Shown here piece by piece: positions 9,679-31,392 of a DNA stretch of 64,000 nt. How positions within the stretch are numbered: position 1 is the first letter of the stretch; the number at the start of each line of letters is the position of its first letter. The stretch is taken from positions 2,294,001 through 2,358,000 of the forward strand of contig NZ_CP114278.1 of assembly GCF_027105095.1 (NCBI RefSeq), written 5' to 3'. Source of the DNA: Brevundimonas vesicularis (lineage in GTDB: Bacteria > Pseudomonadota > Alphaproteobacteria > Caulobacterales > Caulobacteraceae). Position numbers and translations under genes: made by a program. A model generated the notes under the pieces. The model saw only the letters and a program-made list of their open reading frames with translations, ran no database searches and was not told the origin of the DNA.

Positions 9679-9696
9679 GCTGATCGGAAACTGGCG
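9679..9696 (-). promoter_or_regulatory. PhoB-like box A (retropepsin promoter)
   Basis: Coding strand CGCCAGT-TTCC-GATCAGC, the most diverged of five copies of the cluster box. The first repeat is well kept and the second partly. A TACAGA hexamer begins nine bases downstream, and the start codon is 41 bases from the box. Confidence 0.5.
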
Positions 9697-9728
9697 CCGT
9701 CATTTCGCCAGACTTGGTCTGCCTGTCG

Positions 9729-11150
9729 TCATGGCCGCGAGGACGCGTCGGGATCAAAGCGCAGCGCCACTTCGGCGCCCCCGCCCGGCGCCTCTCCGAT
9801 CTCCACCGCGCCCTCGTGCCGATCGACCACAGCTTTCACGATCGCAAGCCCCAAACCGTAACCGCTACGTCCCGTCGAAAAGCGGGTGAACGGTTCGAAC
9901 AGCGTCTTGATTTGTTCGGCGGGAATACCGGGCCCCTGGTCGCGCACCCTGACCCAGCCATCCTTGTCCAGCCGCACCACGACCCGCTGTCCCTCAGCCG
10001 AAAACGACAGGGCGTTGTCGATCACATTGCCGATCGCGGTCTCGACCAGGCCCGGATCGGCCCAGAGGGTGTAGCGCGTCACTTCGCGTTCGAAAACGAG
10101 ATCGAGACCGCGACGGGCCGCGACGACTTCGCGCTCGCCAACCGCCTTCCCCGTCAGCGTGACCAGATCGGATTCTTTCAGCGGTTCCGGCGCCTCGCCG
10201 ATCGTCATCAGCTTGAGCAACTGGTTGGCCAGGTCAGTCAGACGACGAACGTCGGAGATCAGCTTCTCCTTCAGCCGTCCGTCGTCCATGATTTCGAGAC
10301 GGGTGCGCAGCACCGTGAGAGGGGTGCGCATCTCGTGGGCGGCGGCCGACAGGAAGAAGCGCTGTCGACGCTGGGCCTCATCAACCCGCACGATCATCTG
10401 GTTGAGCGCCGATACAAGGGGCGCGACCTCCAGGGGGAGGCCTTTCTCCGGGAAGAGGTCGCTCAGATTGTCGGGATCGAGATCGCGCGCCATGGCGGCG
10501 ACCCTGCGAATGCGCAGAACGTTCGCCAGGAGGATGATTGCGAAAACGACGAACGCCGCCCCGACGGTGAAGAGGAAGATGCCCCCGTAACTCCAGATGA
10601 ATTTGCTGTAGAGCCGAACCGATCCGCTGGCCGCCGTGGTCGTCGCATGTTCGATCCCAGCGTACTCGTAGTAGCTGGCCTGACCTCCACATTCCGAATA
10701 GGCGAGAAAGCTGCGTCCCGGTCCGCCAGGGTCGTCGTTCGTGCTGGTCAGGCACAGGCCTGAATAGGCCTTCGTCAAATCCTGCTTTTGCAGCCTGTCG
10801 AACGCCAGGCTGATGAAGAAGGGCGTCCCTTCACCCGAGCGAAACTCACGCCCACGGACCTTTATGAAATACCGAAACTGCGGATTGTGCGCCTTGATGT
10901 CGCGCAAGACAGGATCAGCGGCGAGGTCGCCGCCTGCGCCCGGGCGCTCGCGTTCGGCGAAGGCGAACCGGCTGAGGACCTGAGAGGCGTTAGATGCCGT
11001 GATCTGCACGGGATCGGCGACGCCGGAGGGTTCGACGGACAGCAGGGGGCGCAGCGTGAAGAAGTAGACGCCAAACCCCACGAACAGAATGGTGATGAGC
11101 GCCAGTTGCCCGAACATGGACCGGTGCAGACTTCGTAACGCCAGACCCAA
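9729..11150 (-). CDS. Sensor histidine kinase of the envelope cluster
   Basis: 473 residues with a TTG start preceded by a strong GAGGAGG. TM1 is at about 12-33, then a periplasmic sensor of about 155 residues with two Cys (133 and 154) that may form a disulfide, TM2 at about 190-215, and HAMP to about 265. The phospho-acceptor His272 is in AAHEMRTPL. N, G1 and G2 ATP boxes are visible (GNVIDNALSFS, DQGPGIP, GYGLGLAIV). No response regulator adjoins it. The only one in the cluster is the OmpR-type gene at 27498-28172, inferred to be its partner. It is the last gene of the operon running from 23369, so its supply would follow the system's own promoter. Confidence 0.9.
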   Translation of the reverse strand: MGLALRSLHRSMFGQLALITILFVGFGVYFFTLRPLLSVEPSGVADPVQITASNASQVLSRFAFAERERPGAGGDLAADPVLRDIKAHNPQFRYFIKVRGREFRSGEGTPFFISLAFDRLQKQDLTKAYSGLCLTSTNDDPGGPGRSFLAYSECGGQASYYEYAGIEHATTTAASGSVRLYSKFIWSYGGIFLFTVGAAFVVFAIILLANVLRIRRVAAMARDLDPDNLSDLFPEKGLPLEVAPLVSALNQMIVRVDEAQRRQRFFLSAAAHEMRTPLTVLRTRLEIMDDGRLKEKLISDVRRLTDLANQLLKLMTIGEAPEPLKESDLVTLTGKAVGEREVVAARRGLDLVFEREVTRYTLWADPGLVETAIGNVIDNALSFSAEGQRVVVRLDKDGWVRVRDQGPGIPAEQIKTLFEPFTRFSTGRSGYGLGLAIVKAVVDRHEGAVEIGEAPGGGAEVALRFDPDASSRP

Positions 11151-11237
11151 CCCGTCCTCCTCGCCCTTGAGCGCTCATGCCTCATCCTAGCCGATGCCCG
11201 CGAGGGTCAAAACAGCACGCTTACAGGGGCGTGGGCC

Positions 11238-14200
11238 TCAGTCGGCCGCGAGACCCTCGAAGCGATTTCCGGCAGAGCTGGCGGCCTGCCGCTTGACCAA
11301 CTGCGCGAGGTCCCTTCGAATCCGTTCAGCAGCCGGCCTGTCTGAGAATGTCGCCAACGTCTCTGCGAAGGCGTCAGAATCCAGTGGCGGGTCACCTGGA
11401 TCGACGGAGTCGCGATCGGCGGGATACAGACTTTGCAGCAGCGCAGCCTGCATCAGTTCTGCGGCGATAGCATTCTCACCGGCGCGTCCATAGGCGCGTG
11501 CAGCCGCTAATCTCAGGCCAGCGGATGGCGTCGACAAGAACCGCAACTGTCGGGTCAACCCCGCCAGGCGCTCTTCATTCAGCGCCACCGGAGCCTTGCG
11601 TTCGAGCGCCAGGAAGAGCGCCAGGTCATTGACGCCGATCGGCGGTCCCAACAGTCGGCCGGCAAGCGCGTCGAGCCGCGCCTGTCCCGCGCCCTGGCTC
11701 CAAAGACCGTCTGCAATCCTGTCATAAAGTCGCATCTGCCGCGCCTGCATGGCTCCCGACAGGCTCGAGAGCTCGGCTTCGACCTCTGCCGTGACGGCGG
11801 GATCGTCGGTCAAGGCCGCCAGAACCGGCGCGGCATAACCGGCGGCTGTCGGATCCGCCAGACTGTCGATCAAGGCCTGACGATCGGCCGTGTCGCCCTC
11901 CTCGCGTCCGCGTGGCGACGTGGAGCGCCATAGACTGCGGAGAGCGTCGGCTCTCGCCGCACCCTGTATCTGCGGCTCAACCAGTCGATCAAGCGGCCGA
12001 GCGGCCGCCGAGGCCATACGCTTTGGCTCTTGAACAGCGAGGGCGACGACAGCTGGCGCTTGCGCAAACCGTTGCCTATAGGCGGCCCAGACCGGCTCGA
12101 AGGCGCTCAGCAGATCGACTTCGCCGCGGCGCGGAGCTGCAGCTCGGGTGACGAGTTGACCGATCCATTCGGGATCATCCAGATCGACGCTCGACGCTTG
12201 CGCCACGCGCGCCGCGTCGGCGGGATTGTCTGTCAGACGGTAGGCTAGGCCCAGCAGGGTGGCGAGCACCTGATCCTCTGATCGGCTCGCGGCGTACGGG
12301 GCTGCGCTCGCGACAAAGGCGGGAAAATCGCCGGCCTTGGCCTGGATCAACAGCAAGCCCGCGATACAGGCGCCGTTCTCGGGCTCGACGGAGACCAGTT
12401 TGGCGTAGGCGGCGGCGACCTTGGGATTGACCGGCGTCTTGGCAGCTTCGCCTTGCAAGAAGCGTCTTTGGAAGCGAGCCGTCTCGTCACGACTTAGCCG
12501 GGGCGCCGATAGGAAGGCGTCAAATGCCGCCTGACGCTCGACCTCGAACTTCTGCGTCAGTAGTCCCGCGAGACTTAATGGCGGCGTTTCCATCGCCTCT
12601 TGCAGAGCGGTCAAGGCTTCGAACGCCCGGGCGCGATCACCAGCAAACCAAGCTGTCAGAACCTCCGGCAGACGCGCGCTGTCGGCGTAGCGCGCCGCGA
12701 CGACCCGCGCGCCTGCTATCAAGACCTCCTGGTTGGCGGGCGGCGCATCCAACCGCAAAAGCAACTCCACAAAGCCGGCGCCGGTGTCAGCCGCCGCCGA
12801 CCGTTCAGCGCTGATGTCCCGGATCAAGACGGCTTGCAGCCGAGCCCTTTGCGCCGGGGTGATCGAGGCGTCGAGCAGATAGCCGGCGATGGCCTTCTGC
12901 AGCCCCGAGGCCGCACCCGTCTGCTCGAGACGCTCAACGAGCGCATCGTAGAGATCAATGAGCCGATCCGGCTCGAACCGTTGCGTCATCACCTGCAGGG
13001 GCGTCGGACCGCCGTCCCGCCGGCCCGCCGCCCCCGCCACGGGAAGCGGATCATTACCGCGCGAAACCAGCAGTTGGATGAGGACTTCATCCGAAAGCAG
13101 GCGACGACCTGCAGCGGCCTCCAGCTTGGCGAACCTGGCGGGATCGATGCGATAGACGTCGTAAAGAGCCAGATCGTTGAACGATGTCTGCGCCAGCGGT
13201 GCCAGAATGTCCTCGCGCACGATCTCTGGACGGTCGACGTCGGCCGCCTTGAGCAGAAGCGAGACCAACATAGGCGGCTGGCCTTCGATCACGCCCTTTT
13301 CACGTTGGGCTCGCCAGGGCGTGTCCGCCGCGATCGCCTCGTCGGTCAGGGCACGAATACGGACGCGGTCCCGGGCTTCGAAGGCCAAGGCCAGACCCAG
13401 ATCGAAATCGCCGCTCGCCTCTGACTGGCGCCGCAGATCTGCGATGGGCCAGTCAGCTCCCGCCGCTGGGGACGCCTGAGGCGCCGGAGCCGGCAGATCG
13501 GCCAACGCGTTCCGTGCATCAGTATCTTTCGCAAAGGGGGCGAGGAGCGATGTCTGCAGTTCGCCCAGATCGGCCTCGCCTAGGAAGGTAGCCAGCCGCT
13601 GGTTGATGCTGACGATCAGCGCGAGCCTGGGATAATCGGCCAGCTTGGCCGCCCCGCCCGATGCGGCCGATTGCGGCGGCAGCGCTGCAGAGGACGCGGT
13701 CCGGCGCCAGGCGGCCAAACGCTCTGGGGTCTCATCGGCAGGCCACGTCAACAGCGCGCCTTCGATCAGCGTCGGCGCGTACTGAGCGGCATCGAGCGCC
13801 TTCAGGGCGTCGCTGGCGCTTTGCGTCGGCTGCCGCTGCACAAGGGCGTTTAGACCGCGCCAATAGAGGGCGCCGGCTTCCGATTTCTGGCCCGACTGTT
13901 CCAGCAGGACAGCAGTGCGGGCGATCAGATCGAGATTGTCCTGATCCTGCAAAAGCGCCACGCGGTAGCTGGCCAGGGCCTCGCGTGTCATTCCAGCCTC
14001 GGCATAGGCCTCGCCTCGCAAGGCGTCCACGTTCACCAGTCCGCCGATGTCGCCCATCAATGCAAACGCCCGCTCGGCGCCGGCGACATCGCCTTCCTTC
14101 AGGAAGGTCTCCGCGAGGTCGGCGTAAACCTCCGGCGGATAGGGTTTACGCATCGCCACAAGGCGGCGGCCGTAGACCGCCTTGCGCGCCGGGTCGCCTG

Positions 14201-16742
14201 CCGCCGATTCACTGTCGGACGTCAGACTGATCAGTTGACGCAGGACCGCCGGCTTCTGATCGCCCGCGACCGCCAGCGAGGACTGGAGGGCGCGCAACTG
14301 TAGTTCAGGATCGCCGCGCCCTTGGCCTATATCGCCGACCAGCGATGACAGCCGGACATCATCTCCATCCTGCAGCATACGCTCCAGCGCTGCGCGCCTC
14401 GCCCACCCCAGGCGGGCTTGCGTTAGATCGGCCGGGACTGGGTCGCTGTCTGCGTCGCCGGCGGACAGCACGTCCAGAAGGCCATTCAAGGCGGCCATGA
14501 ACGCGGCGGCGCCCGGGGCCGCCTCCGCTTTGAACTGAAGCAGACTGGCGGCCTGCGCCGCCTGTCCTTCCGTCTTCATCGCCGAGGTGTATTCCAGCAG
14601 CGCGTCGACGTCTCCCGGGGCTAGCGCGAGAGCGCGTCTGTGTTCGGCCAGCGCCTCGGCGCGTCGGTATCCCGATGTATAAATCGACGCCGCGAACCGC
14701 GCGGCTTCGACATCGTCGAGTTGGCCGGCGGCGCGCATCCGCGTCATCAGTTCATCCACGCGACGATTGCGATCCGCCTCGCTCTCGGCGGGGTCCGGGA
14801 AACGCAGCAGATTGATGATCAGCCGGCGCAGATAGGCGTCCGCGTTGGCGGGATCGGAATCGGCCAAGAGGGCCAGGCTTGCGTTGAGACCGGCGTAGTT
14901 CCTGAGCCGCGCCTGAACCGCCGCCAGTTGCTCCAGGGTCCGAACTTCTCCTGACCGCGAACGCTCAGCATAGCGGCGAACCGCGCGCTCAGCCCCCGCG
15001 CCGTCCTGCTGCGCGATGCGGATTTCGACCAGCAGGCTCACCTCGCCCTGATCCGCAGCGCCCGAGGTGATCCGCCCTTCGAGTTCGGCGGCAATCGTCT
15101 CCAACTGACCCGTTTGCCGGGCGGCGCGAATGATCTGTCGTTGCAGAAAGACCTTGCGCGCGGGCAGCTGGGTGCGGGCCCACAGCACCCGCCAACGTCT
15201 CAACGCTTCCGCAGGCTGGCCGGCAGCGAAGGCCAGGTCCGCGATATGGGCCTGTTGATCGTCGTCCAGCGCGCCGCCTCGCGACTCCGCGCCCAGCAGG
15301 GTTTCGAGCGCCAGATCCTGGCGACCCAGCCGCTCGTAATCTTCCGCCACGGCGACAAGGAGGGCCGTATCGCGCGGCGCGGCCGCCGAAAGAGCACGAA
15401 GGCCCGCCTCGGCCTCAGCCTCGCGACCCTGATCTATGGCGGTCTCGACTTCGAAGCGACGGATCGCGGCGGTCACCGCCGGCGACGAGCCGGCGTCACC
15501 CAGGATACGGGTCGCCTGCTCCCCCATCCCCATGGCGATCATCTTGCGCGCCGTCTCGATCTGCACATCAGCGTCGGCGCGATTAGCGACAGCGAGACCG
15601 CGATAGACCTCAACCGCCTCGTCCGCCTTGCCCTGTTCCAGATAAAGGGCGGCCAAGCCATCGGCCCAACGGGGGTCGGCGGGCTGAGCCGCAATCAGGC
15701 GGCGATATTCGGCCTCGACTTCCGCCGTGCGATCCGCCGTCTTCAGCACGCTGAGCAACCGCTCGCGCAGAGCGCCGTTCCCGCTCTGCCGAACCAGGGC
15801 GACTGCATCGTCGTAGCGTCGCAGCTCCAAAAGCACATCGAGGCGAGCCTGATCCACGTCCGCCCCACGCGGTTTCTGCGCCAGAAACACCTCGGCGCCC
15901 GCGAGCTGATTCGCTGTCCGATAGGCTTCCACTAAGAGGGCCAGGGCGTAGAGCCGATCTTCGGTGGTCACGGCGGCCTCGGCAGCACGCCAGGCTGAAG
16001 CGGCGGCCGCATCCGGCGTACCTTGGCTGATGGCCCAATCCGCCAGGCGCACCCCATCGCTGTACCGCGCGCTGGCTTCCGTCTGCGGGCGATAGAGCGC
16101 CGCGGCATCGCCGGGTCGCCCAAGCAGCGCGAGAACCGCCGCCGCCCGGTTCGCCATGACCGCGTCACCCGATCCCGCAAGCTGAGACAGGGCCTCCGGC
16201 TTACGTCCCGTCACTCCAATGATCGCCAGGCGACGGTCGAGCAAGGCGCGCTCTTGCGGGTCCTCAGATTGCGCCCGCGCCCGTTCATACCAGACCGAAG
16301 CCGCCCCGGCCTGGTTCTGAATGTCCAGCAACTGACCTCGCAGGAGCAGCGCGTCCGTGGACTGACAGTGATCGAGCGCATCTGAGACGGTGTCGGTCGC
16401 GGCATCGACATCGCCGTCACGCCATTCCAGCACCGCTTTCAAAACGCCGACCCGACAGGCGCGCTCTGAATCGGCGCCGACCGACAGCTCATCCAGTCGT
16501 CCATAGACGGCGCTCAATTCGTTCGCGAGCACGGCGCGGGCGTACAGGCTATCCGCCGCAGCGAAGTCGAGCCGCGCGCCGGACAGGGCGCTGTCGATCA
16601 TCGCGCGTGAACCGACGCCGTTCGGGGTCGGCGGCGTCGAAATCTCGCCGCCCGGCGCCGTTTGCGCCATTGCCGACGCGACGCCGGCGCCGGCCAAACT
16701 AAGGCCGAGGGCGAGAAACAGGGAGCGTGATCGCAAGGTCAT
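11238..16742 (-). CDS. Giant periplasmic TPR-repeat protein
   Basis: 1834 residues from the ATG opening a clear signal peptide (LFLALGLSLAGAGVASAMAQ). Almost the whole chain is alpha-helical, Ala-rich tetratricopeptide-like repeats, for example LYLEQGKADEAVEVYRGLA and YAEAGMTREALASYRVALL. This suggests a long solenoid scaffold in the periplasm. It starts 10 bases after the VWA gene and belongs to the same operon. TPR proteins often accompany MoxR, DUF58 and VWA proteins, but are normally a few hundred residues; this size is unusual. No catalytic domain was seen. It may organise the membrane-bound VWA proteins. Confidence 0.85.
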   Translation of the reverse strand: MTLRSRSLFLALGLSLAGAGVASAMAQTAPGGEISTPPTPNGVGSRAMIDSALSGARLDFAAADSLYARAVLANELSAVYGRLDELSVGADSERACRVGVLKAVLEWRDGDVDAATDTVSDALDHCQSTDALLLRGQLLDIQNQAGAASVWYERARAQSEDPQERALLDRRLAIIGVTGRKPEALSQLAGSGDAVMANRAAAVLALLGRPGDAAALYRPQTEASARYSDGVRLADWAISQGTPDAAAASAWRAAEAAVTTEDRLYALALLVEAYRTANQLAGAEVFLAQKPRGADVDQARLDVLLELRRYDDAVALVRQSGNGALRERLLSVLKTADRTAEVEAEYRRLIAAQPADPRWADGLAALYLEQGKADEAVEVYRGLAVANRADADVQIETARKMIAMGMGEQATRILGDAGSSPAVTAAIRRFEVETAIDQGREAEAEAGLRALSAAAPRDTALLVAVAEDYERLGRQDLALETLLGAESRGGALDDDQQAHIADLAFAAGQPAEALRRWRVLWARTQLPARKVFLQRQIIRAARQTGQLETIAAELEGRITSGAADQGEVSLLVEIRIAQQDGAGAERAVRRYAERSRSGEVRTLEQLAAVQARLRNYAGLNASLALLADSDPANADAYLRRLIINLLRFPDPAESEADRNRRVDELMTRMRAAGQLDDVEAARFAASIYTSGYRRAEALAEHRRALALAPGDVDALLEYTSAMKTEGQAAQAASLLQFKAEAAPGAAAFMAALNGLLDVLSAGDADSDPVPADLTQARLGWARRAALERMLQDGDDVRLSSLVGDIGQGRGDPELQLRALQSSLAVAGDQKPAVLRQLISLTSDSESAAGDPARKAVYGRRLVAMRKPYPPEVYADLAETFLKEGDVAGAERAFALMGDIGGLVNVDALRGEAYAEAGMTREALASYRVALLQDQDNLDLIARTAVLLEQSGQKSEAGALYWRGLNALVQRQPTQSASDALKALDAAQYAPTLIEGALLTWPADETPERLAAWRRTASSAALPPQSAASGGAAKLADYPRLALIVSINQRLATFLGEADLGELQTSLLAPFAKDTDARNALADLPAPAPQASPAAGADWPIADLRRQSEASGDFDLGLALAFEARDRVRIRALTDEAIAADTPWRAQREKGVIEGQPPMLVSLLLKAADVDRPEIVREDILAPLAQTSFNDLALYDVYRIDPARFAKLEAAAGRRLLSDEVLIQLLVSRGNDPLPVAGAAGRRDGGPTPLQVMTQRFEPDRLIDLYDALVERLEQTGAASGLQKAIAGYLLDASITPAQRARLQAVLIRDISAERSAAADTGAGFVELLLRLDAPPANQEVLIAGARVVAARYADSARLPEVLTAWFAGDRARAFEALTALQEAMETPPLSLAGLLTQKFEVERQAAFDAFLSAPRLSRDETARFQRRFLQGEAAKTPVNPKVAAAYAKLVSVEPENGACIAGLLLIQAKAGDFPAFVASAAPYAASRSEDQVLATLLGLAYRLTDNPADAARVAQASSVDLDDPEWIGQLVTRAAAPRRGEVDLLSAFEPVWAAYRQRFAQAPAVVALAVQEPKRMASAAARPLDRLVEPQIQGAARADALRSLWRSTSPRGREEGDTADRQALIDSLADPTAAGYAAPVLAALTDDPAVTAEVEAELSSLSGAMQARQMRLYDRIADGLWSQGAGQARLDALAGRLLGPPIGVNDLALFLALERKAPVALNEERLAGLTRQLRFLSTPSAGLRLAAARAYGRAGENAIAAELMQAALLQSLYPADRDSVDPGDPPLDSDAFAETLATFSDRPAAERIRRDLAQLVKRQAASSAGNRFEGLAAD

Positions 16743-16752
16743 GATCTCGATC

Positions 16753-19227
16753 TCAAACGGCGATCCGCCGAGGCGGCCAGCGACGATAGACGATGTCGGC
16801 GACATAGAGGGCCAAAGCCAACCAACAGAGCCAGCCCCAAAGGTCCAGCGCCGAGGCGGGCGGACGTGCCGGCGAGAGGGCGACGGCGCTGATGCGAGAC
16901 GGATTTTGGATCACCGTCCCGCCCGTCAGACGCGCGAGTTCATCCAGTGGCAGGCCGTCGGCCTCGGAGACCGGGCGGTCGGACTGACCGCCGGAAACGG
17001 CCGGCAGCGCCGCTCGGGACACGCCGCGTCCGTCGCGAACCTCGGCGAGCACCGCAGACTTCGTCGGCGCAGGGCCTTCCGCCGTAAACAGAACCGGCGC
17101 CCGTTCGACTGTCGAAAGCGCGGGACCAGCTTGGCCTGCGGCGTCCATCAACCGGATCTGCGGCGCGTCGGCGCCGGCGCTGCGGACACGCTGCGCCACG
17201 ATCTTGACCCGGTCGCCGACGCGGCCGAGACGGACATCCCAGTCGGGTCGCGGGTCGGCCGTGCGGGCGATCAGGCCTTGCATCCAGTCGCCGTAGCCGG
17301 ACCAGTTGCGCCAACGGGCGGTTCCCTGCCCCACAGGCTCGGTCATCAGCGCCGTCACACGCCCGGCGCCCCATTGCCAGGACGCCAGAACCGGCTCGCC
17401 GGTCGTCGTGCGGATCAGGGTCTGCGCCAACGGCTTTACGCCCGCCTGGGTGTAGCCGTCCAACTGCCTGGGCGGGGCCGCCGCCAACTCACCCCAACCG
17501 AAAGATGGGGCGGATGCGGCCAGGGCGAAACCTCCGCGCTTAACGCCCGGCTGAGGCTTCTGCTGCGGCTGTTTGAAGTTGATCTCGACAAGGTTGAACT
17601 CGTCCCCAACGACATAGAACCGACCCCGCCCCAGCCGCGCCCACTGCGCCATCCGGGCTTGGCCCTCGACGCTGCCGCCGACCAGCACGGTCGATACAGT
17701 GACCTGGTCCTCGGCGATGTGTCGGATCAGTTGGGGATAGCGGTCGGCGTTCACCCCAGCATCCGAGATCACCAGGATATGGCGATAGCGGGCCTGGGTG
17801 TTCTGAAGCCCATAATAGGCTTCCTGCAGGGCGCCGAAGAGATGTTCGCTTCCGCCCTGGGCCTGGACCCGACCGATGGCGCGCTCGATCTCAGGAACAT
17901 CTCGCGCAGGCTGCATCGGCGCGACCCATTGGCGACCGCCGTAGAACTCGACCACGCCGACGCTGTCTGCCGGCGTGAGTTTGCGCACCGCCAGGCGCGC
18001 GACCTGCTTGCCCAGATCAAGCGGCGCGCCAAGCATCGAGCCTGACGTGTCGATCACGACGGCGACGGCGACGCTGGGATCCTCGGTCTGCTCGTCCTGG
18101 CGGATGGTCACGGGCAAGGCGGCGGCGAGCGGCGTGCCGGCGTAACCGCCCGCGGCGAAGGCGCTGTCCCCACCGGACACCATCAGGCCGAGACCGCGAG
18201 AGCGGACCGCCTCGATCAACCGTTGCTGCGAAGGAACCGGCAGCGCAGACGCGGGCACATCATCCAACATGACCGCGCGGTAGGCCGACAGGTCGATGCC
18301 GCCCAAGGCCGCCGGCGCCCGGCTGTCGATGCGAAGACCCGGACCCGCAAGTCTCTGAAGCGCCGCCGCGCCGCCGGCCTGGCCTCCGTCGACATACAGG
18401 ATGGGAAGCGGATCCTGCACGGCGGCCGCCGTCTCGAACTGGCTGGCGACAGCGCCGCCGCGTGTCAGCTCGATACGTAGCGGCATGAAGCCTGGTTGAT
18501 CGAGGGGGATGGCCAGAGCCACGCTGGCAGGGCCGTCGAGGTCGATCGGTCCAGCCCCGCCGACCCGCCGATCGCCGCTGAACACCGAGATCGACAAATC
18601 CTGCCCGACGCCGTCCAGCCGCACCCGCGCCGAGACGCGCTCGCCGGCGCGGCCTGCAGGAATGGCGACGTCGGAGATGAAGGCGTCCCGGCGTCCAACG
18701 GTGACTGGCACGCTGTCCACGACCACGCCACGCGCCAACAGGGCATCGACGGAACGCCCCCAGACGCGATCGGCGCCCAGGCCAGAGCCGATCATCGTGA
18801 CCCTGCCCTCTGAGCCGAGCGGGAAAGCTGCAAGCGCTAAATCAAGCGCATGAGAGATGCCACCCGTCTGGCCGCTTTCCGGCAAGGTGACGTGCCGCGC
18901 CGCCTTCAGGGCGAGAGGCGCGCCGCCCCGCTGGATGACAACGACGGGGCCGTTGCGTTCCACCCGCGCCACCACCGATTGGGCGGCCGAGGCGGCAAGC
19001 GCGCGAGACGCAGGCGAAAGCGCAGCGCCCTGATCCACGATGATCACCGACGTCGGACCGCCCCGACGCACAATCAGACTGGGTTGAGCCAGGGCCGCGA
19101 CGAGCGCCACGAAGACGGTCGTACGAAGGGCAACGCGCACCCTGGAAGCCTTGCGCGCCCACCAGACGAATCCGGGGATCAGCAGCAGGAGCCAGCCCGC
19201 CTCAGGATGAAGAAAGGTCAGGTTCAC
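16753..19227 (-). CDS. Membrane VWA-domain protein of the MoxR partner operon
   Basis: 824 residues. An N-terminal BatA-like segment with two membrane helices (GWLLLLIPGFVWWA; TTVFVALVAALAQP) is followed by a glutamine-amidotransferase-like region. A von Willebrand A domain has the MIDAS motif DTSGS near residue 393. A Gly/Ala-rich region and a last membrane helix near the C-terminus (LWGWLCWLALALYVADIVY) complete it. VWA domains bind metal and protein partners, and MoxR ATPases are thought to remodel such complexes. It sits 10 bases from both neighbours, BatA-like upstream and TPR downstream. Confidence 0.85.
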   Translation of the reverse strand: MNLTFLHPEAGWLLLLIPGFVWWARKASRVRVALRTTVFVALVAALAQPSLIVRRGGPTSVIIVDQGAALSPASRALAASAAQSVVARVERNGPVVVIQRGGAPLALKAARHVTLPESGQTGGISHALDLALAAFPLGSEGRVTMIGSGLGADRVWGRSVDALLARGVVVDSVPVTVGRRDAFISDVAIPAGRAGERVSARVRLDGVGQDLSISVFSGDRRVGGAGPIDLDGPASVALAIPLDQPGFMPLRIELTRGGAVASQFETAAAVQDPLPILYVDGGQAGGAAALQRLAGPGLRIDSRAPAALGGIDLSAYRAVMLDDVPASALPVPSQQRLIEAVRSRGLGLMVSGGDSAFAAGGYAGTPLAAALPVTIRQDEQTEDPSVAVAVVIDTSGSMLGAPLDLGKQVARLAVRKLTPADSVGVVEFYGGRQWVAPMQPARDVPEIERAIGRVQAQGGSEHLFGALQEAYYGLQNTQARYRHILVISDAGVNADRYPQLIRHIAEDQVTVSTVLVGGSVEGQARMAQWARLGRGRFYVVGDEFNLVEINFKQPQQKPQPGVKRGGFALAASAPSFGWGELAAAPPRQLDGYTQAGVKPLAQTLIRTTTGEPVLASWQWGAGRVTALMTEPVGQGTARWRNWSGYGDWMQGLIARTADPRPDWDVRLGRVGDRVKIVAQRVRSAGADAPQIRLMDAAGQAGPALSTVERAPVLFTAEGPAPTKSAVLAEVRDGRGVSRAALPAVSGGQSDRPVSEADGLPLDELARLTGGTVIQNPSRISAVALSPARPPASALDLWGWLCWLALALYVADIVYRRWPPRRIAV

Positions 19228-19237
19228 GGCGCGGTTC

Positions 19238-23369: not shown

Positions 23370-23413
23370 TTCGACCCGCGCAAACTCATCAGAACTGTCA
23401 CATAGGACCGTCA

Positions 23414-23431
23414 GCTTGCACCAACCTTACA
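23414..23431 (-). promoter_or_regulatory. PhoB-like box B (MoxR-partner operon promoter)
   Basis: Coding strand TGTAAGG-TTGG-TGCAAGC: two 7-base direct repeats with a 4-base spacer. TATGTG begins nine bases downstream, a good -10 candidate. It shares the divergent intergenic region with box C. Confidence 0.65.
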
Positions 23432-23487: not shown

Positions 23488-23505
23488 CGTCAGGCTGGCG
23501 CAAGC
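23488..23505 (+). promoter_or_regulatory. PhoB-like box C (M16 peptidase promoter)
   Basis: Reads CGTCAGG-CTGG-CGCAAGC on the plus strand, pointing to the divergent M16 gene 49 bases downstream. It is the only box on this strand, as expected from the gene's direction. The -10 is weaker: TTGATG after nine bases, or TATGTT after four. Confidence 0.6.
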
Positions 23506-23554
23506 TTCGTATGTTTGATGGCGGCCACGCGACTTCGGCGTGTGAGGATCGACC

Positions 23555-26302
23555 TTGAAGACCTTCGGAAAACCCATCGCCGGCGTCGTGCTGGCCGTCC
23601 TTTTGTCCTGCGGCGCCTCGAGCGTGGCGCTGGCCCAGGCGCGCCCCGAACTGGGCCAGGTCCGCATCCCCTACGAGACCTTCACCCTCCCGAACGGCCT
23701 GACGACCCTGGTCTACACCGATCACACCGCGCCCACGGTTTTTGTCGGCGTCTGGTACCGGATCGGCTCCAAGGACGAGCCCGTCGGAAAGACCGGCTTC
23801 GCCCATCTGTTCGAACATTTGATGTTCCAGCCGACGGTCAATCGTCCCACCGAATATTTCACGCCGCTGGAAGCCGTTGGAGCCACGGGCCTGAACGGCA
23901 GCACCACAACCGATTACACAAACTATATCCAGACGGTGCCCACCAACGCGCTAGACCGGGCTTTGTGGATGGAAGCGGACCGCATGGGCCATCTGACAGA
24001 CGGGATGACGCAGGCGCTGCTCGACGAGCAGCGGGCCGTGGTGAAGAACGAGAAGCGCCAGAGCGAACTCGGCCCGGGTCGGGCGGCTGAGGCGCAGTTC
24101 CTCAAGAGCTACTACCCTGCCGGACACCCTTACGCCCATACGACCATCGGTTCGATGGAGGATTTGGACGCCGCCACCCTTGGCGACGTCAAGGCCTGGT
24201 TCGACGCCAACTACGGCGCCTCCAATGCCGTGCTGGTCCTTGCGGGCGACATCGACGCCGCGACGGCGCGCGAAAAGGTCGCCTTCTATTTCGGCGGCGT
24301 TCGCCAGGGCGAGCCGATCAGTCGACCGGATCGCTGGACTCCGTCGATGCCCGACATCCGGCGCGATATTGTCTATGAGAATATTCCGGCGGCCGTCATT
24401 TCGCGGACCTGGCCGCTCAGCAATGCGTCGCCGCGCGAAAACACGCTCTCGCAACTCGCAGCCCGTGCGATGGCGGCGGGGCGCGGCACGCCGCTGCACG
24501 ACGCTCTGGTCGACAGGCTGAAAATCGCCGACGGCGTGTCCGCATCCGTCGGCGAAGGTCAACTGGCCAGCGCCTTCACCCTGTCCGTCGCCCTGAAGCC
24601 TGGCGTGACGCCGCAGGCCGCCGGCGAGGCCATCGATCGCGAACTGGCGGCCTTCTTCGCCGCTGGACCCGACCCAGATCGTCTGGAACAGGTCGTGACG
24701 GCCACCGACATCTCTCTCCTGAAAACGATGGAAAGCAGCGCAGCGATCGGCGCCTGGCTCGCCAACGGCGCCGTGACGCACGACGACCCTGTCTATTTCC
24801 TCAAGCAGCGCGAATGGATCAGCGATGTCGATCCGGACGCATTGGCGCGGCTGACGCAGAGCGTGCTCTCGCGGCCCTACTATGAGCTGGTCCAGCTTCC
24901 GACGCCGGTTCCTGTCGCCGCACCGTCCGGCGTAGCCGACCCCACGCGCATGCCCGATCCCGGCCCGGCGGACACGACGATCGCCTTCCCCGCCGTGGCC
25001 GAGGCGACGCTCGCCAACGGGCTCAAGATCGTTGTGGCCAATCGCCCTAATCTTCCGATCGTGAGCGCCAGCCTGCAGTTCTCAACCGGCGCGCTTGCCG
25101 AAGAGGCGTATGGACGTGGCACGGCCAATCGCGCCGTGGCCATGCTGACCAGCGGCTCGCGCCGCTACACCGTCGAACAGCTGCAGCGCGAGGCGACCAA
25201 GGCTGGCGTCAACATCGCCGCCGGTGCTGAAAGTCGGCAGAGCGCCGTGAGTTGGACCATGCTCGCCGCGCGCCTGGACGACGGCTTCAGGTTTGTTTCC
25301 GAGGTGGTGCGGCACCCCACCTACCCTCAGACCGAGATCGACAAGGCGTTAGATCAAGTCGCCCCCCAGTTCGACGCCTATGAGCGCAATCCGCTCCAGG
25401 CGGCCGGCCCAATCTATTCTCGAGCGATATGGGGCGAAGACCATCCTCTCGGTCGTATCGGCACGCGCGAAGACGCCAAGGCCGTGTCACGCGACGATAT
25501 CCAAGCTTTCCACGATCGCGAGATCGGCCCGAACAACGCCACCCTCTATATCGTTGGCGACATCACACTCGAGCAGGCTAAGTCGCTGGCGCAGTCATAT
25601 TTCGGCGACTGGCGACGCATCACCCCGACACCTCTCAACGAGCGAGGCGCGGCGACCGGCGTCCCAGGTCGCATCATCCTGGTTGACGCGCCTGGTGCAG
25701 CTCAGACGAGCCTGACGGTGGGCGAGCTGACCACGCCGTTCGTCGCGGAACAGGCGGCGGCGTCCCTAGCGGACTCCATCCTGGGCGCCGCCTTCAACAG
25801 CCGGCTGAATATGAATCTGCGCGAGGAGAAGGGGTGGACCTACGGCTTCACCGGCGGCGTGGCCGACACGCCCGTTGGCCCACGCACCTTCACCGCCTCA
25901 GGCACGGTCGAGGCCGGCCGGACGGCCGACGCGATGGCGGAGATCCGCAAGGAGATCGCCGCCTATGTCGCCGACAGGCCGGCCACGGCCGAAGAGTTGG
26001 AACGGGATCGCACCGCGCGGACGCTTGCCCTGCCCTCGGCCTTTTCCGGCAACGGCGCCTTCCTTGCGGCGATGACCAGCGCGGCGGCGTATGGCCAGCC
26101 GTACGATCATGCAGCGTCTTCAGGCGCTCGTCTGACGGCGGTCACGCTCGATCAGGTCCAGGCTGTCGCCCGGCGGACCTACGATCCGGCCCGCCTGACC
26201 TGGGTCGTGGTGGGCGACCTGTCCAAGATCGAGACCTCCGTCCGCGCGCTCAACTATGGCCCTGTCGAGGTCTGGGACGTCTATGGCCACAAGGTCCGCT
26301 AA
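23555..26302 (+). CDS. Periplasmic M16 family zinc peptidase (two-domain)
   Basis: 915 residues with a TTG start preceded by GAGGATC. A signal peptide (VVLAVLLSCGASSVALAQ) points to the periplasm. The N-terminal M16 domain carries the inverted zinc motif HLFEH in GFAHLFEHLMF near residues 85-95, with the further Glu in EQRAVVKNEKRQ. The second half (from about 480) repeats the M16 fold without the zinc motif, as in pitrilysin-type clamshell peptidases that degrade peptides held inside a chamber. It is transcribed away from the MoxR-partner operon, but under a copy of the same box, so I place it in the same regulon. A peptide substrate is likely. Confidence 0.93.
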   Translation: MKTFGKPIAGVVLAVLLSCGASSVALAQARPELGQVRIPYETFTLPNGLTTLVYTDHTAPTVFVGVWYRIGSKDEPVGKTGFAHLFEHLMFQPTVNRPTEYFTPLEAVGATGLNGSTTTDYTNYIQTVPTNALDRALWMEADRMGHLTDGMTQALLDEQRAVVKNEKRQSELGPGRAAEAQFLKSYYPAGHPYAHTTIGSMEDLDAATLGDVKAWFDANYGASNAVLVLAGDIDAATAREKVAFYFGGVRQGEPISRPDRWTPSMPDIRRDIVYENIPAAVISRTWPLSNASPRENTLSQLAARAMAAGRGTPLHDALVDRLKIADGVSASVGEGQLASAFTLSVALKPGVTPQAAGEAIDRELAAFFAAGPDPDRLEQVVTATDISLLKTMESSAAIGAWLANGAVTHDDPVYFLKQREWISDVDPDALARLTQSVLSRPYYELVQLPTPVPVAAPSGVADPTRMPDPGPADTTIAFPAVAEATLANGLKIVVANRPNLPIVSASLQFSTGALAEEAYGRGTANRAVAMLTSGSRRYTVEQLQREATKAGVNIAAGAESRQSAVSWTMLAARLDDGFRFVSEVVRHPTYPQTEIDKALDQVAPQFDAYERNPLQAAGPIYSRAIWGEDHPLGRIGTREDAKAVSRDDIQAFHDREIGPNNATLYIVGDITLEQAKSLAQSYFGDWRRITPTPLNERGAATGVPGRIILVDAPGAAQTSLTVGELTTPFVAEQAAASLADSILGAAFNSRLNMNLREEKGWTYGFTGGVADTPVGPRTFTASGTVEAGRTADAMAEIRKEIAAYVADRPATAEELERDRTARTLALPSAFSGNGAFLAAMTSAAAYGQPYDHAASSGARLTAVTLDQVQAVARRTYDPARLTWVVVGDLSKIETSVRALNYGPVEVWDVYGHKVR

Positions 26303-26317
26303 TCGGCGGACCTCCTC

Positions 26318-26355
26318 AAAAAAAGCGCCGCGGGCCAAGCAGGATCCCGCGGCGC
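26318..26355 (-). terminator. Rho-independent terminator of moxR
   Basis: A perfect 10-base stem, GCGCCGCGGG at 26325-26334 pairing with CCCGCGGCGC at 26346-26355. On the minus strand it is followed by seven T (26318-26324). It lies between the convergent M16 and MoxR genes. It fits MoxR best, but may also slow M16 transcripts. Confidence 0.85.
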
Positions 26356-26390
26356 CCTTAAGCACCCTCTTTGACGGTCCAGATTGGGGG

Positions 26391-27407
<1,017 letters not shown>

Positions 27408-27455
27408 TGAAAATCCGCACACTTAGATCCAGTCAAACAGGGTATGGCATAGAAG

Positions 27456-27473
27456 GCTTGCACCAGTCTGGCA
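27456..27473 (-). promoter_or_regulatory. PhoB-like box D (moxR promoter)
   Basis: Coding strand TGCCAGA-CTGG-TGCAAGC, close to the consensus. CATACC begins nine bases downstream. It lies in the gap between the response regulator gene and moxR, so moxR can be transcribed on its own. Confidence 0.65.
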
Positions 27474-27497
27474 GGCCTTTCGAAAGCCGAAGCGGCG

Positions 27498-28172
27498 TCA
27501 GCCTTCCGCCGCCAGACAATAGCCGAGACCGCGGACCGCCTGGATGCGCACCTTGTCCGTGCGCCGCGCCAGATTGGTCCTCAGCCGTGAAATCTGTGAC
27601 TCAAGCGAGTTGGCGTTGACGACCTTGTCGTATCCATAGACCCGCGCCTCCAGCGTCTCGCGCTGGATCACCGCGCCGGGCCGGGCCATCAACGCTTCCA
27701 GCACCAGCGCCTCGGTGCGGCGCAGGGTCAAAGGCGCCTCGTCGATGAAGAAGACACCGCTTTCCAGATCGTGCATCAATGGTCCGAACTGACGAGTCTC
27801 ACGACGCGCCTCAAGCGAACGACGCAGGGCGATGCGAATTCGCGCCAGAAGTTCACGCGGCTCGAACGGTTTGGCGATATAGTCGTCGGCGCCGGACTCA
27901 AGGCCTTCGACACGATGATCCGGCGCGGCCATGGCCGTGAGGATGATATAGCGCTGACGGCGGTTGCGATGCGCCGAATAGGCGATCAGGGAAACCCCGT
28001 CGCCATCCGGCAATCCTCGATCCAGCAGCACAAGGTCGAAGTCATTCGCGTCGACGGCAGTCCTTGCGATCGCGAGAGATGGCGCGACATCGACGACGAA
28101 GCCCTGTCTTTCCAGGTAGACGACAAGCGTTTCCGCAACGTCGACGTCGTCCTCCACCAGCAACAGACGCAC
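27498..28172 (-). CDS. OmpR/PhoB-family response regulator
   Basis: About 224 residues from a GTG with GGAGGT upstream; an in-frame start at 28223 is less likely. The receiver domain has acidic residues 7-9 (VEDD), phospho-acceptor Asp51 in LVLLDRGLPDG, and Lys in YIAKPFEP. The C-terminal winged helix (LTLRRTEALVLEALM ... SLESQISRLRTNL ... VRGLGYCL) is of the OmpR/PhoB class, which binds tandem 7-base repeats as a dimer. It is the only response regulator in the window and has no adjacent kinase. The kinase at 9729-11150 is the natural partner. I infer it binds boxes A-E. No box precedes its own start. Confidence 0.92.
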   Translation of the reverse strand: MRLLLVEDDVDVAETLVVYLERQGFVVDVAPSLAIARTAVDANDFDLVLLDRGLPDGDGVSLIAYSAHRNRRQRYIILTAMAAPDHRVEGLESGADDYIAKPFEPRELLARIRIALRRSLEARRETRQFGPLMHDLESGVFFIDEAPLTLRRTEALVLEALMARPGAVIQRETLEARVYGYDKVVNANSLESQISRLRTNLARRTDKVRIQAVRGLGYCLAAEG

Positions 28173-28261
28173 CTCCGACCTCCCTTCTGACGCTCCAATC
28201 CGTATTGGCCGGATATGAAGCATTTCGCCTTCTAACGAACAGGCAGGCCGTCGGCCCAGAG

Positions 28262-28287
28262 GCAGGGCGCGCTGGTGCGCGCCCTGC
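28262..28287. terminator. Strong hairpin between TonB receptor and response regulator
   Basis: A perfect 11-base stem GCAGGGCGCGC / GCGCGCCCTGC with a 4-base loop, five bases after the receptor stop codon. On the receptor's own strand no T run follows; TTTT follows only on the plus strand. It may reduce read-through into the response regulator or stabilise the receptor mRNA 3' end. Confidence 0.6.
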
Positions 28288-28292
28288 TTTTG

Positions 28293-31244
28293 TCAGAATG
28301 AATACTGGAGCTCCAGAGACAAGGTCCGACCTGCGGCATTGTAGCGTCCCGTATCGTAAGGCCGCCCCTGAACCACCACGAACGGCGGCGCCTGATCCAG
28401 TATGTTTCGACCCGCGAAACTGATGCGGATGTCGTTCGTGACCCGCCAGGCGGCCGTCAGGTCGAGGATGAGCATGTCATCGACCGGCACAAACTTCCGC
28501 TCGTCGGTTACGTTGCCGGCGGCCCGGAAGACCTCGTAGTCGTTCGTGTACTTCGGCGTGTAGTAGGCCCAAAGGGATGCGCTCATGTCGTGATAATACC
28601 AGCCGACCGAGCCCACCACCTTGTAGTCGTCAGGCCCCTGGAGGAAGCCCAGGTTCGAGACGGGTTCGCGATTGGCGAAGGCCTGGCGTTCCGACTTGAT
28701 ATTGTCCAACACATTGATCTTCGGCTCGAACGTGCCCCAACGCGTCGGCCAAAGGTAGCTCAGCTCGTAGGCGATCGACTCATATTCCGAGCCGATAATG
28801 TTGAAGGTGTAGTTCCTCGCCTCGATGATCTTGCCGCTGGCGTCGCGTGGATAGAACTGAGAAAGCTGAAGAATCTCGCGCCGGGTCAGGAAGGTCTGCA
28901 GGTCGTTGGGGTTGGCGTATTCGCTGTCGATCTTGGTCGAGTTATAGGCGACATCCAGGGTCAAGCCCTTCAGTACGCCCTCGGGACGCCAGTTGAAGCC
29001 CAGGGTGTATTGCGTGGACACCTGCGGCTCCAGGTCGGGGTTCGGGGCCACGACCATTGGGACGACATAGGTTCTTGGCCGCACACAGTCCGTCGTGCAG
29101 GTGTAAAGCGGATCGTCAGAGATCGTCGTGGTGTAACGCTGAGTGCCAGTCGGGTTGAAGAGTTGCGTGTACGGCGGCGCCTTGAAACCCTCGGTCCACC
29201 GAGCGCGGAGCGCCAGGCCCTGGAACGGTTCCCAGCGCAGACCGATGGCCGGGGTGGTGTTGGCGAAGGTGTTGGACTCGTAGAGCAGTTCTCCGCCTTG
29301 GGAATAGGGCACATTGTTGACCGTGCCGATCGGTCCCGAGGTCTTATAGCTGTCGCGTCGCGCAGCCAGGCTCAACAACAGGGATCGCGCGCCCGGATAG
29401 TTGAAACCCTCGCCAAAGATCGGAACGGTCAGTTCGCCGAAGTAGGCGTGGCGGTCGCTCGTGACCGGATTGATGGTCCGGACACGGACTTCCTTACTGT
29501 CCGTGTCGTCCACAGACATCTCGGCCCCCGCCGCGTAACGGATCTTCCCAGCGGGCAGCGCCCACAGGGCACCCGTCAGCCGCGCTTCCCAGTTCTCGGT
29601 GCGCGTCGACCGCTCCTCGGTGACAGGAATATAGTAGAAGTCGGCGACACTGGACCCGCCGCCGTCGGCGGACGACTTCCAGGGATTGAAGGCGAGCGCG
29701 GGGTCGCTGCTCGTCAAGGCGAGGCATTGCCGGTCGAAGACCGCCTGGAGCATCTCCCGGTCCGTACCGTTGAGTTGGTTCTGCGCAAGCTGGAAGTTAT
29801 AGCAACTCACGCCGTTTGGGGCGGCCGCGTCTCTGATGAGTTCAACAGTAGAGCCTAACAGCGGGCTCTGACCTGACGTCTCGGATTTGGAGGTGGTGTA
29901 AAAAAGCTCCGCCTTGGTGTCGGTGTTGATCTGGTAACGCAGGCCCAGATTCAGGTTCCACTGTGTCGCCGTATTCGAAATCCGCCCTGTCGGCAGCTCG
30001 CCCGCGTCGACCTCCGACTTGGGGTTGTAGGCCACCAGCGGCCCCGGCGTGAATCGGTCGAAATAATAGGCTGGGAAGGGATTGTAAGCCTGGCCAGGGG
30101 CCAGCTGAACGCGCAATCCTTCCGAATACAGGATGTCCTGCTCGTTCTTGCTGCGCGAATATAGTGCGTTGCCGAAAGCTGTCAGCCTGCTGGTCAGCTT
30201 TTGCTCGAAGTTGAGCGTACCGCTGATCGTGTCAGACTCCGGACCGGCCAACTCCGGCACAATGTCCGGCAAGGCCTCAGCCCCGACTGTAATGAAGTCG
30301 TTCAAACCGGGACGACCAACCAGGCCCGGCCTGACGGTCAGACCCTGCGCGACGTAACGCGCATTGTAATCGGGCGGATCGAACGAATAGTAGCCACGGT
30401 CGATGACGCCAGGCTGCAGCCCGCGACTGAACGACCGCAGATCAAACGACGTGTCGCCGCCGTAGTAGCTGGCGTAGTTTTGCGTGACATAGCCGCTCTT
30501 ATAGTTGTTGACCGGCTTACGGCGGCTGTAGTCGATCGTCCCCGAGATGTTGCCGGAGCCCCAGGAATAGCCGGAGAACAGGCTTATGCGGCTGTTGTCT
30601 GCGTCATTGCTGGACTCTTCGTGCTGAACCGTCAGGGTCGAACCGACGAAATCCTTGCGCAGAATGAAGTTGATGACGCCACCGATGGCGTCGGCGCCAT
30701 AGATGGCGGACGCGCCGCCAATCGAGATTTCGACACGCTCCACGGCGCTGAGGGGGATGCCGTTGAGGTTAGCAAAACCATCCTCGATCCCTGCGGCTCC
30801 GGCGACGCGCCGGCCGTTGACAAGGATCAGCGTGTTGCCGGCGCCCAGGCCGCCGAGATTGGCGGCCGACACGCCGAGCGAGCCGATCTGCGAGACACCG
30901 ACCTTGCCGCGATTGGACAGCGGCCCCCGCGCGCGTTCATTGGTGACGGCGCCGATGGTGTTGACGTTCTGCGGCAGAGTCCGGATCAGTTGCTCGACGC
31001 TGGTCACGCCGCGCGCCTGGATTTCTTCCTTCGAAATGACAATGACCCGCGAGGTCGGGTCACCCGTTGCAAGACGGCTCCCTGTCACCTCGACCGATTC
31101 CACGACCGAAGCCTCACCGGCTGGCTGAGCGGCGCGGGCGCGTTCAGCTTCCGTCGGCTGCGGAGCCGATTGGGCCCAGGCCCCGCCAGCAGATGCACAG
31201 AGCATCAGCGCCAGCATTGAAGTGCTCATCGGTCTCGTCGTCAC
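28293..31244 (-). CDS. TonB-dependent outer-membrane receptor
   Basis: 983 residues from a GTG with AGGGGGA upstream, giving a normal signal peptide (SMLALMLCASAGGAWAQ). A TonB-box-like VESVEVTGSR is followed by the plug domain (VISKEEIQARGVTSVEQLIRTLP ... NTLILVNGRRVAG ... VERVEISIGGASAIYGADAIGGVINFIL) and a large beta-barrel ending in the aromatic LQYSF. The barrel is of the oar-like/large substrate class seen in Caulobacterales and Xanthomonads. Substrate unknown. The shared box E and the neighbouring M16 and aspartic peptidases make a peptide-like ligand plausible. The promoter region is about 130 bases from the start, so the mRNA leader is long. Confidence 0.94.
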   Translation of the reverse strand: MTTRPMSTSMLALMLCASAGGAWAQSAPQPTEAERARAAQPAGEASVVESVEVTGSRLATGDPTSRVIVISKEEIQARGVTSVEQLIRTLPQNVNTIGAVTNERARGPLSNRGKVGVSQIGSLGVSAANLGGLGAGNTLILVNGRRVAGAAGIEDGFANLNGIPLSAVERVEISIGGASAIYGADAIGGVINFILRKDFVGSTLTVQHEESSNDADNSRISLFSGYSWGSGNISGTIDYSRRKPVNNYKSGYVTQNYASYYGGDTSFDLRSFSRGLQPGVIDRGYYSFDPPDYNARYVAQGLTVRPGLVGRPGLNDFITVGAEALPDIVPELAGPESDTISGTLNFEQKLTSRLTAFGNALYSRSKNEQDILYSEGLRVQLAPGQAYNPFPAYYFDRFTPGPLVAYNPKSEVDAGELPTGRISNTATQWNLNLGLRYQINTDTKAELFYTTSKSETSGQSPLLGSTVELIRDAAAPNGVSCYNFQLAQNQLNGTDREMLQAVFDRQCLALTSSDPALAFNPWKSSADGGGSSVADFYYIPVTEERSTRTENWEARLTGALWALPAGKIRYAAGAEMSVDDTDSKEVRVRTINPVTSDRHAYFGELTVPIFGEGFNYPGARSLLLSLAARRDSYKTSGPIGTVNNVPYSQGGELLYESNTFANTTPAIGLRWEPFQGLALRARWTEGFKAPPYTQLFNPTGTQRYTTTISDDPLYTCTTDCVRPRTYVVPMVVAPNPDLEPQVSTQYTLGFNWRPEGVLKGLTLDVAYNSTKIDSEYANPNDLQTFLTRREILQLSQFYPRDASGKIIEARNYTFNIIGSEYESIAYELSYLWPTRWGTFEPKINVLDNIKSERQAFANREPVSNLGFLQGPDDYKVVGSVGWYYHDMSASLWAYYTPKYTNDYEVFRAAGNVTDERKFVPVDDMLILDLTAAWRVTNDIRISFAGRNILDQAPPFVVVQGRPYDTGRYNAAGRTLSLELQYSF

Positions 31245-31374
31245 GTCATTCCCCCTGCCAGCCACGCCGGCGAAAATTTCCACCTCCGTTGCGTGGTGAA
31301 GGGAATGACGCGGCGTTCAGTGACCGGCAGAAATTCCGCAGCACGTTGCAACACCGTCATGGATACGTCGCCAA

Positions 31375-31392
31375 GCTTGCACCAAACTGGCA
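31375..31392 (-). promoter_or_regulatory. PhoB-like box E (TonB receptor promoter)
   Basis: Coding strand TGCCAGT-TTGG-TGCAAGC, the best copy. The similarity extends to an 11-base tandem repeat, TGCCAGTTTGG then TGCAAGCTTGG. TATCCA begins nine bases downstream of the 18-base box. Confidence 0.7.

Follow-up and report, generated by a model that had tools for sequence, protein, structure and literature searches.

Promoter boxes shared across a MoxR and TonB receptor gene cluster of Brevundimonas vesicularis, and their predicted reading by the cluster's own OmpR-family regulator

The window (the whole stretch of 64,000 bases that was analyzed) spans positions 2294001-2358000 of the 3,120,167-base genome of Brevundimonas vesicularis. 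It contains a cluster with the following genes, given in window coordinates.

28293..31283, minus strand: TonB-dependent receptor (TBDR), by family search
27498..28172, minus strand: response regulator of the OmpR/PhoB family with a receiver and a winged-helix DNA-binding domain (Pfam PF00072 and PF00486), likely GTG start
26391..27422, minus strand: MoxR AAA ATPase (PF07726)
23555..26302, plus strand: M16 peptidase of double length with one HxxEH motif (HLFEH)
21903..23369, minus strand: g488, low-complexity protein that reaches no family cut-off
20944..21903, minus strand: DUF58 protein (PF01882 above cut-off)
19238..20947, minus strand: g569, some of whose UniRef relatives are named 'Aerotolerance regulator N-terminal ...'
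16753..19227, minus strand: von Willebrand A (VWA) domain protein (PF13519 above cut-off)
11238..16805, minus strand: g1855, large protein with TPR matches below threshold
9729..11150, minus strand: histidine kinase (HK; HisKA, HATPase_c), gene six of the g488 operon
8726..9637, minus strand: retropepsin-like aspartic peptidase with motifs DTAA and DTGA, ATG at 9637

The six genes from g488 to the HK gene, which is the last, form the g488 operon. MoxR is found together with DUF58 and VWA partners (PF07726, PF01882 and PF13519, all above cut-off), as in Bat/MoxR operons, and g1855 is a candidate TPR partner in which every TPR match stays below cut-off; no family cut-off was reached by g488, g569 or g1855 in the family searches. 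Among solved structures the M16 peptidase matches 4nnz best (7.5e-40), followed by the proteases 6b03 (1.5e-11) and 6brs (4.1e-11); 6b03 and 6brs are structures of FusC, which belongs to the ferredoxin-import system. The genes for TBDR and regulator share a strand, with 69 bases between them if the regulator starts at its ATG or 120 with the GTG start; the GTG at 28172, the start adopted in an earlier preliminary description of this DNA, fits the start kept in relatives.

We note several features around the cluster. Two integrase-family genes and a 622-aa family-less ORF (window 2862-8301) adjoin its retropepsin end, and no match to them was found in the stretches examined of the related genome G056, though the cluster is present there. 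At 136-1293 the window encodes a protein carrying CNLDCSYC, which by this motif presumably resembles a radical SAM/SPASM peptide maturase. A tRNA-Thr gene (TGT; 31701-31776) adjoins the TBDR promoter, and a 184-aa ORF on the other strand (31600-32154) overlaps it and is probably no gene.

The preliminary description had proposed five promoter boxes in this cluster, and all five sequences are found where it placed them, each facing the next start codon.

31375..31392, minus strand: box before the TBDR gene and the response regulator gene behind it, TGCCAGTTTGGTGCAAGC; orthologous promoter boxed in 5/5 diverged clusters
27456..27473, minus strand: box before MoxR, TGCCAGACTGGTGCAAGC; orthologous promoter boxed in 5/5 diverged clusters
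23488..23505, plus strand: box before the M16 peptidase gene, CGTCAGGCTGGCGCAAGC; orthologous promoter boxed in 5/5 diverged clusters
23414..23431, minus strand: box before the six-gene operon from g488 to HK, TGTAAGGTTGGTGCAAGC; orthologous promoter boxed in 5/5 diverged clusters
9679..9696, minus strand: degenerate fifth box between the HK and retropepsin genes, CGCCAGTTTCCGATCAGC

The distances from box to start codon are 44 bases for g488, 49 for M16 (TTG), 33 for MoxR and 91 for TBDR. The four strong boxes (31375, 27456, 23488 and 23414) share the pattern AGNYTGGYGCAAGC, which has four exact matches in the whole 3.12 Mb genome, all of them these boxes, and four matches in the window as compared to none in 100 dinucleotide shuffles. 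With one mismatch allowed, AGNYTGGYGCAAGC gives 20 matches in the genome against 37 for the reversed control, i.e. no wider excess. The claim that the boxes are variants of one consensus holds in the sense that the four share AGNYTGGYGCAAGC, but not for the consensus as literally proposed: TGCCAGTNNNNTGCAAGC with three mismatches has 7 matches in the window where 5.9 are expected, and was rejected as a genome scan (83 + 89 matches, fewer than the 227 + 248 of the reversed control). The own-genome search was done by pattern, and matrix searches were run on individual loci. Since AGNYTGGYGCAAGC was derived from the four sites themselves, the decisive evidence is comparative.

Clusters of this kind were found in Luteimonas sp. 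XNQY3 (L025), in Sphingomonas azotifigens (L026) and in two further genomes of the order of S. azotifigens (G513 and G452). Few of the genomes searched carry the cluster, yet they include both Alpha- and Gammaproteobacteria: a g488 homologue was found in 3 of 150 relatives (own genome counted). Of 396 genomes sampled in the order of S. azotifigens, five gave a g569 match (S. azotifigens itself, G513, G452, a short G226 contig and one weak fragment), and of 398 sampled in the order of Luteimonas, three matched, two of these matches being weak fragments. A protein search returned 53 relatives of g569, including proteins of Brevundimonas, Sphingomonas, Novosphingobium and Idiomarina (30% identity), and g569 had no plasmid match at E 1e-5. 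The cluster has spread horizontally.

For a held-out test, a matrix was built from the four window sites only and run on five diverged loci of 32-40 kb each (one from Brevundimonas, one from Luteimonas and three from the order of S. azotifigens). Nineteen of the 20 promoters were found boxed exactly, on the right strand and among the top four matches of their locus, as compared to at most 4 of 20 for any of 500 column-shuffled matrices, even with 150 bases of slack. The one miss, the MoxR box of S. azotifigens (rank five), arises because the retropepsin box of that genome outranks it. The boxes are kept in a rearranged cluster as well: in G452 the block of TBDR, response regulator and MoxR is inverted and placed behind the HK gene, and each promoter keeps its own box. 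Being about 95% identical and hence not independent, the G056 cluster contributes neither to the 20 promoters nor to the 24 sites counted here; the six clusters that remain share ancestry and are not six independent trials, and a binomial figure based on them is therefore too favourable.

A second pattern, GYMAGNYTNSYGCAAGV, set after reading the sites of four clusters, has 4, 4, 4, 4 and 5 matches in G000, G002, G056, G150 (Luteimonas) and G151 (S. azotifigens), respectively; all 21 are inside the cluster, and the reversed control has 6 in all. In the two genomes unused in its making, G513 and G452, it has 5 and 4 matches, of which 4 and 3 are inside the cluster (the g488 box of G452 is missed, as it ends in T). 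Altogether, 28 of 30 matches in these seven genomes fall inside the cluster, as compared to a mean of 0.69 per genome in 145 relatives in which the cluster was not seen (the 150 less three that carry the cluster and two that retain decayed remnants). Across the 150 relatives, own genome included, there are 115 matches in 67 genomes; the 145 account for 100 of them, with five each in G104, G127 and G141. Six of the regions around these 100 non-cluster matches, in five genomes (G092 twice, G128, G136, G139 and G142), contain no cluster genes, and their only matches are to generic kinases and regulators (27-34% identity). With motif frequency and conservation both checked in this way, the boxes are real, the regulon reading of the preliminary description is supported overall, and that description was largely right.

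Incomplete clusters were also seen. On the short 10.1 kb contig of G226, which carries MoxR-DUF58-g569-vWA-g1855, no regulator match was found, and GYMAGNYTNSYGCAAGV has 0 matches genome-wide. Two genomes of the same genus contain decayed clusters: in G090 (L105-L106) the tail of g1855 runs into M16 residue 137, and in G009 (L107) the match to TBDR extends no further than residue 581 and that to HK begins only at residue 373. Of the boxes, those of MoxR and TBDR survive in G090 and that of TBDR in G009.

The 24 sites of the six clusters (four promoters each) give the consensus NGYMAGNYTGGTGCAAGC, with two 7-base half-sites 11 bases apart. At a lag of 11 bases, 124 of 168 comparisons are identical (74%), as compared to 9-37% at lags 3-10, 12 and 13, which implies half-sites of 7 bases separated by a spacer of 4; the 7-4-7 geometry of two repeats proposed earlier is thus borne out. 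Positions 2, 5, 6, 9 and 13-17 are invariant over the 24 sites. The core of the first half-site is GCAAG, GCCAG, GTAAG or GTCAG, and that of the second is GCAAG in all 24. The YTGG spacer is conserved like the first half-site (T9 in 24/24); this exceeds the need of a neutral spacer and counts against a simple binding-site reading.

Downstream of each box in the window lies a -10-like element.

31360..31365, minus strand: -10-like hexamer TATCCA, nine bases past the TBDR box; TA at that spacing in 6/6 clusters
27441..27449, minus strand: extended -10-like element TGC-CATACC, MoxR; TG at that spacing in 5/6 MoxR promoters
23512..23520, plus strand: extended -10-like element TGT-TTGATG, M16; TG at that spacing in 6/6 M16 promoters
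23399..23404, minus strand: -10-like hexamer TATGTG, g488; TA at that spacing in 5/6 g488 promoters
9664..9669, minus strand: -10-like hexamer TACAGA, fifth box; TA at that spacing in 5/5 loci, four of them Brevundimonas

The dinucleotide TA is found at offset 9 in 11 of the 24 sites (mean 0.55 per offset) and in no more than three at any other offset from 0 to 25; A is found at offset 10 in 19 of 24. These TA dinucleotides belong to the TBDR and g488 promoters, 11 of 12 of which carry TA nine bases past the box. The M16 and MoxR promoters are without TA there and have weak hexamers, and 11 of these 12 carry TG at offset 6-7, which fits the extended -10 layout with a hexamer starting at offset 9. 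The -10 therefore appears to come in two forms, plain (TBDR, g488 and retropepsin) and extended (M16 and MoxR). The extended form is the weaker claim because TG, present at offset 6 in 11 of 24 sites, is frequent also at offset 1 (8 of 24). The proposal of a -10 hexamer exactly nine bases on stands for TBDR, g488 and retropepsin, where TA is in place, but less well for MoxR and M16, whose weak hexamers are preceded by TG. As judged from spacing in the sequence, a box at this fixed distance upstream of the -10 would fit a class II activated sigma70-type promoter.

The fifth box is a different case. On a matrix of 16 sites its score is -0.4, which 278 positions in the window equal or exceed, and this is chance level; in Brevundimonas its second half-site is poor. 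It reads CGCCAGYTTCCGATCAGC in the window, G056, G002, G090 and G009, a conserved block in diverging surroundings. At the same place S. azotifigens has TGCCAGCTTCGCGCAAGC and G513 has GGCCAGCTCCAGGCAAGC, in which the repeat is kept and the spacer differs; the G513 site is not among the top matrix matches of that genome and has CA instead of TA at nine bases. No retropepsin match was found in the Luteimonas and G452 stretches examined. Because its sequence score is at chance level, the fifth box is rescued by comparison only, and the view that it is mere chance, suggested by the score, was dropped after its conservation in relatives was seen. It appears to be a real, weak member. The five boxes as one set are thus four strong sites and a fifth that is degenerate by sequence and supported by relatives; likewise, of the five targets proposed earlier, the g488 operon, M16, MoxR and TBDR have strong boxes, but the retropepsin box is degenerate.

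As the preliminary description had stated, an OmpR/PhoB-type regulator is encoded among these genes, with PF00072 and PF00486 above cut-off. Its label 'PhoB-like' holds at the level of the OmpR/PhoB family, but not beyond. The NCBIfam models rank PmrA (154.9 bits, cut-off 330), TctD (150, cut-off 337) and PhoB (147.1, cut-off 296.2), and none of the best 25 reaches its cut-off; a PhoB ortholog (TIGR02154) and a PmrA ortholog (NF007928) were both rejected on these scores. The closest solved chains are those of BasR/PmrA (8jo2 and 4s04). The OmpR-type regulator is present in 6/6 clusters, its recognition-helix region NSLESQ[IV]SRLR being nearly constant over the six, like the box, and a HisKA/HATPase_c protein is present in this cluster and in the other five. 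The likeliest reader of the boxes would be this regulator, assigned by co-occurrence, and the kinase would be the partner that phosphorylates it.

The same code is found outside the cluster. In G092, which belongs to another family of the order, a non-cluster GYMAGNYTNSYGCAAGV match on C66 led to a locus (L109:9076-12081) with the gene order PmrA/QseB-like regulator, kinase, mipA (Pfam checked), where TGCAAGGTTAGTGCAAGC lies upstream of mipA with CATAAT nine bases on. The regulator there is 34% identical to the cluster regulator and is PmrA/QseB-like by model rank, below cut-off. In G945 (L131), TGCAAGGTTGGTGCAAGT is followed by CATAAA nine bases on, mipA lies behind a kinase motif, and MipA is 80% identical. 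MipA matches occur in 14 of 60 genomes of the family of G092, and the box in two (G092 and G945); at the other 12 MipA loci (26-38% identical) no match above 15.6 bits was found. As the box recurs beside an OmpR-type pair, these loci support a regulator of this family as its reader; as the locus of regulator, kinase and MipA is otherwise unrelated, the code is not private to the cluster, and other regulators may read the box too.

A gammaproteobacterial MAG (L027) contains, at 3626-20636, a regulator, a kinase, two TonB receptor genes and a g1855-like protein. The regulator (46% identical) adjoins the kinase. The best matrix match of this locus (13.0) is CGTAAGGTTTCGGTAAGC, upstream of a receptor gene, and the third (8.3) is TGTCAGCTTCCGGTAAGG, nearby and in the opposite direction. 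These sites seem to resemble the same 11-base layout with GGTAAG, which we regard as only a lead, as there are two sites in one genome.

Taken together, we read the boxes as predicted head-to-tail sites of the 27498-28172 regulator, which would activate its own cluster in class II fashion and travel with its own sites, and we put the probability of this reading at roughly 85%. Once phosphorylated, the regulator would occupy roughly -39 to -22, replacing the -35 element, and would recruit RNA polymerase to promoters that offer a -10 or extended -10 only. Its targets would be the cluster itself, so that receptor, proteases and machinery would be switched on together. Both signalling genes are preceded by a boxed promoter, the regulator gene by that of the TBDR gene and the HK gene by that of the g488 operon, which it closes; the system is therefore probably positively autoregulated.

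Other readings of the boxes were weighed. A chance resemblance picked by eye might be suspected from the literal consensus, which is not enriched in the window, and from the fifth box, whose own score does not rise above chance; the held-out prediction in five diverged clusters refutes it for the four strong boxes, and we give it practically no weight. The boxes could instead be sites of a host chromosomal regulator of PhoB, PmrA or QseB type with the cluster as one of its targets, and the PmrA/QseB-like locus of G092 does have the same box alongside. Such a regulator should have sites elsewhere, however, and the own genome has no other exact site, while all 21 matches of GYMAGNYTNSYGCAAGV are in-cluster in hosts as distant as Brevundimonas and Luteimonas; we consider this quite unlikely. 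Given the fixed distance to the -10 and the conserved TTGG core, the motif might also be part of the promoter itself, recognized by an alternative sigma factor and not by an activator. A -35 element usually lies 16-18 bases from the -10, which does not suit a direct repeat of 18 bases whose end is nine bases short of the -10; as the scan of 11 cluster proteins showed no sigma factor either, this explanation is very improbable.

The cluster regulator might also bind the boxes and repress, since they overlap the promoter, and PhoB is a dual regulator according to site position, as described in part of one report (PMC10294691). The fixed -10 spacing and hexamers too weak to act unaided are the layout of an activator-dependent promoter, and PhoB sites overlap the -35 in an initiation complex modelled in a section of another (PMC3348028). 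Repression therefore seems unlikely, and activation by the cluster regulator is the reading we carry forward.

In its widest form, to which we give even odds, our proposal is that a Bat/MoxR-type machine, a TonB receptor and proteases of two kinds move between hosts as a unit together with a dedicated two-component system, which brings its own 7-4-7 sites (YGYMAGN-YTGG-TGCAAGC). Nothing but the regulator and a -10 would be required at such promoters, so the cluster could be regulated alike in Alpha- and Gammaproteobacteria. The gene content suggests a common handling of envelope proteins or peptides, possibly by an inducible system that takes up and degrades envelope proteins (import-and-degrade) or repairs them (envelope repair). 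The code at the MipA loci and the GGTAAG variant of L027 would place the system, as one branch among others, in a broader TGCAAG family of envelope-sensing regulators; if this is true, co-evolution of regulator and box becomes testable. The role of the MoxR/Bat machine is poorly understood, and a dedicated inducer system would provide a handle on it, as its signal may lead to the function. The regulator-box pair, with sites in several diverged hosts, should also be useful for work on recognition codes.

Searches of the open-access literature found no paper joining MoxR, DUF58, a TonB-dependent receptor, M16 and a two-component system. Those for a TGCAAG direct repeat with a response regulator returned only monooxygenase work, those for Brevundimonas MoxR, TonB-dependent and response regulator returned only the Caulobacter iron response, and among the papers listed none combined retropepsin with MoxR or with TonB-dependent proteins.

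Several known systems resemble this one in part. The Pho box is CTGTCAT, whereas the box here is TGCAAG, and there are no phosphate genes among the targets. What is shared with PhoB is the OmpR/PhoB domain architecture and, going by a section of one paper, direct repeats that overlap the -35 (PMC3348028). OmpR/PhoB-family regulators bind direct repeats, and a 7-4-7 site is given for PhoP of M. tuberculosis in part of a further paper (PMC4832192). PmrA (BasR) is alike in being the best NCBIfam model, in providing the closest solved chains and in its period of 11, its half-sites standing head-to-tail and five bases apart in the portion of the source that bears on them (PMC3973317); however, these half-sites are CTTAAG and XTTAAT as compared to GCAAG here, and the targets differ. 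The loci of regulator, kinase and MipA in G092 and G945 share the box and the nine-base spacing, but have one target gene seen and no MoxR cluster. A published parallel is P. aeruginosa, where mipB has parRS as its neighbour and gel shifts described in part of a report show ParR bound to the mipBA promoter (PMC10936184). For R. anatipestifer, sections of two papers describe a response regulator, PhoP, that controls a moxR/Bat operon. Gel shifts show it bound ahead of moxR and ahead of a gene for a TonB-dependent receptor (PMC9603813, PMC11834572); in these sections it has 583 peaks with TTTAACA as the most conserved bases, whereas the motif here is another and its sites are almost cluster-only. 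Bat or MoxR-vWA operons are alike in MoxR, DUF58, VWA and the naming of g569 relatives, but here a TBDR, an M16 peptidase, a retropepsin and a two-component system are added, which would tie TonB receptor, both peptidases and the MoxR-DUF58-vWA machine into one regulated unit.
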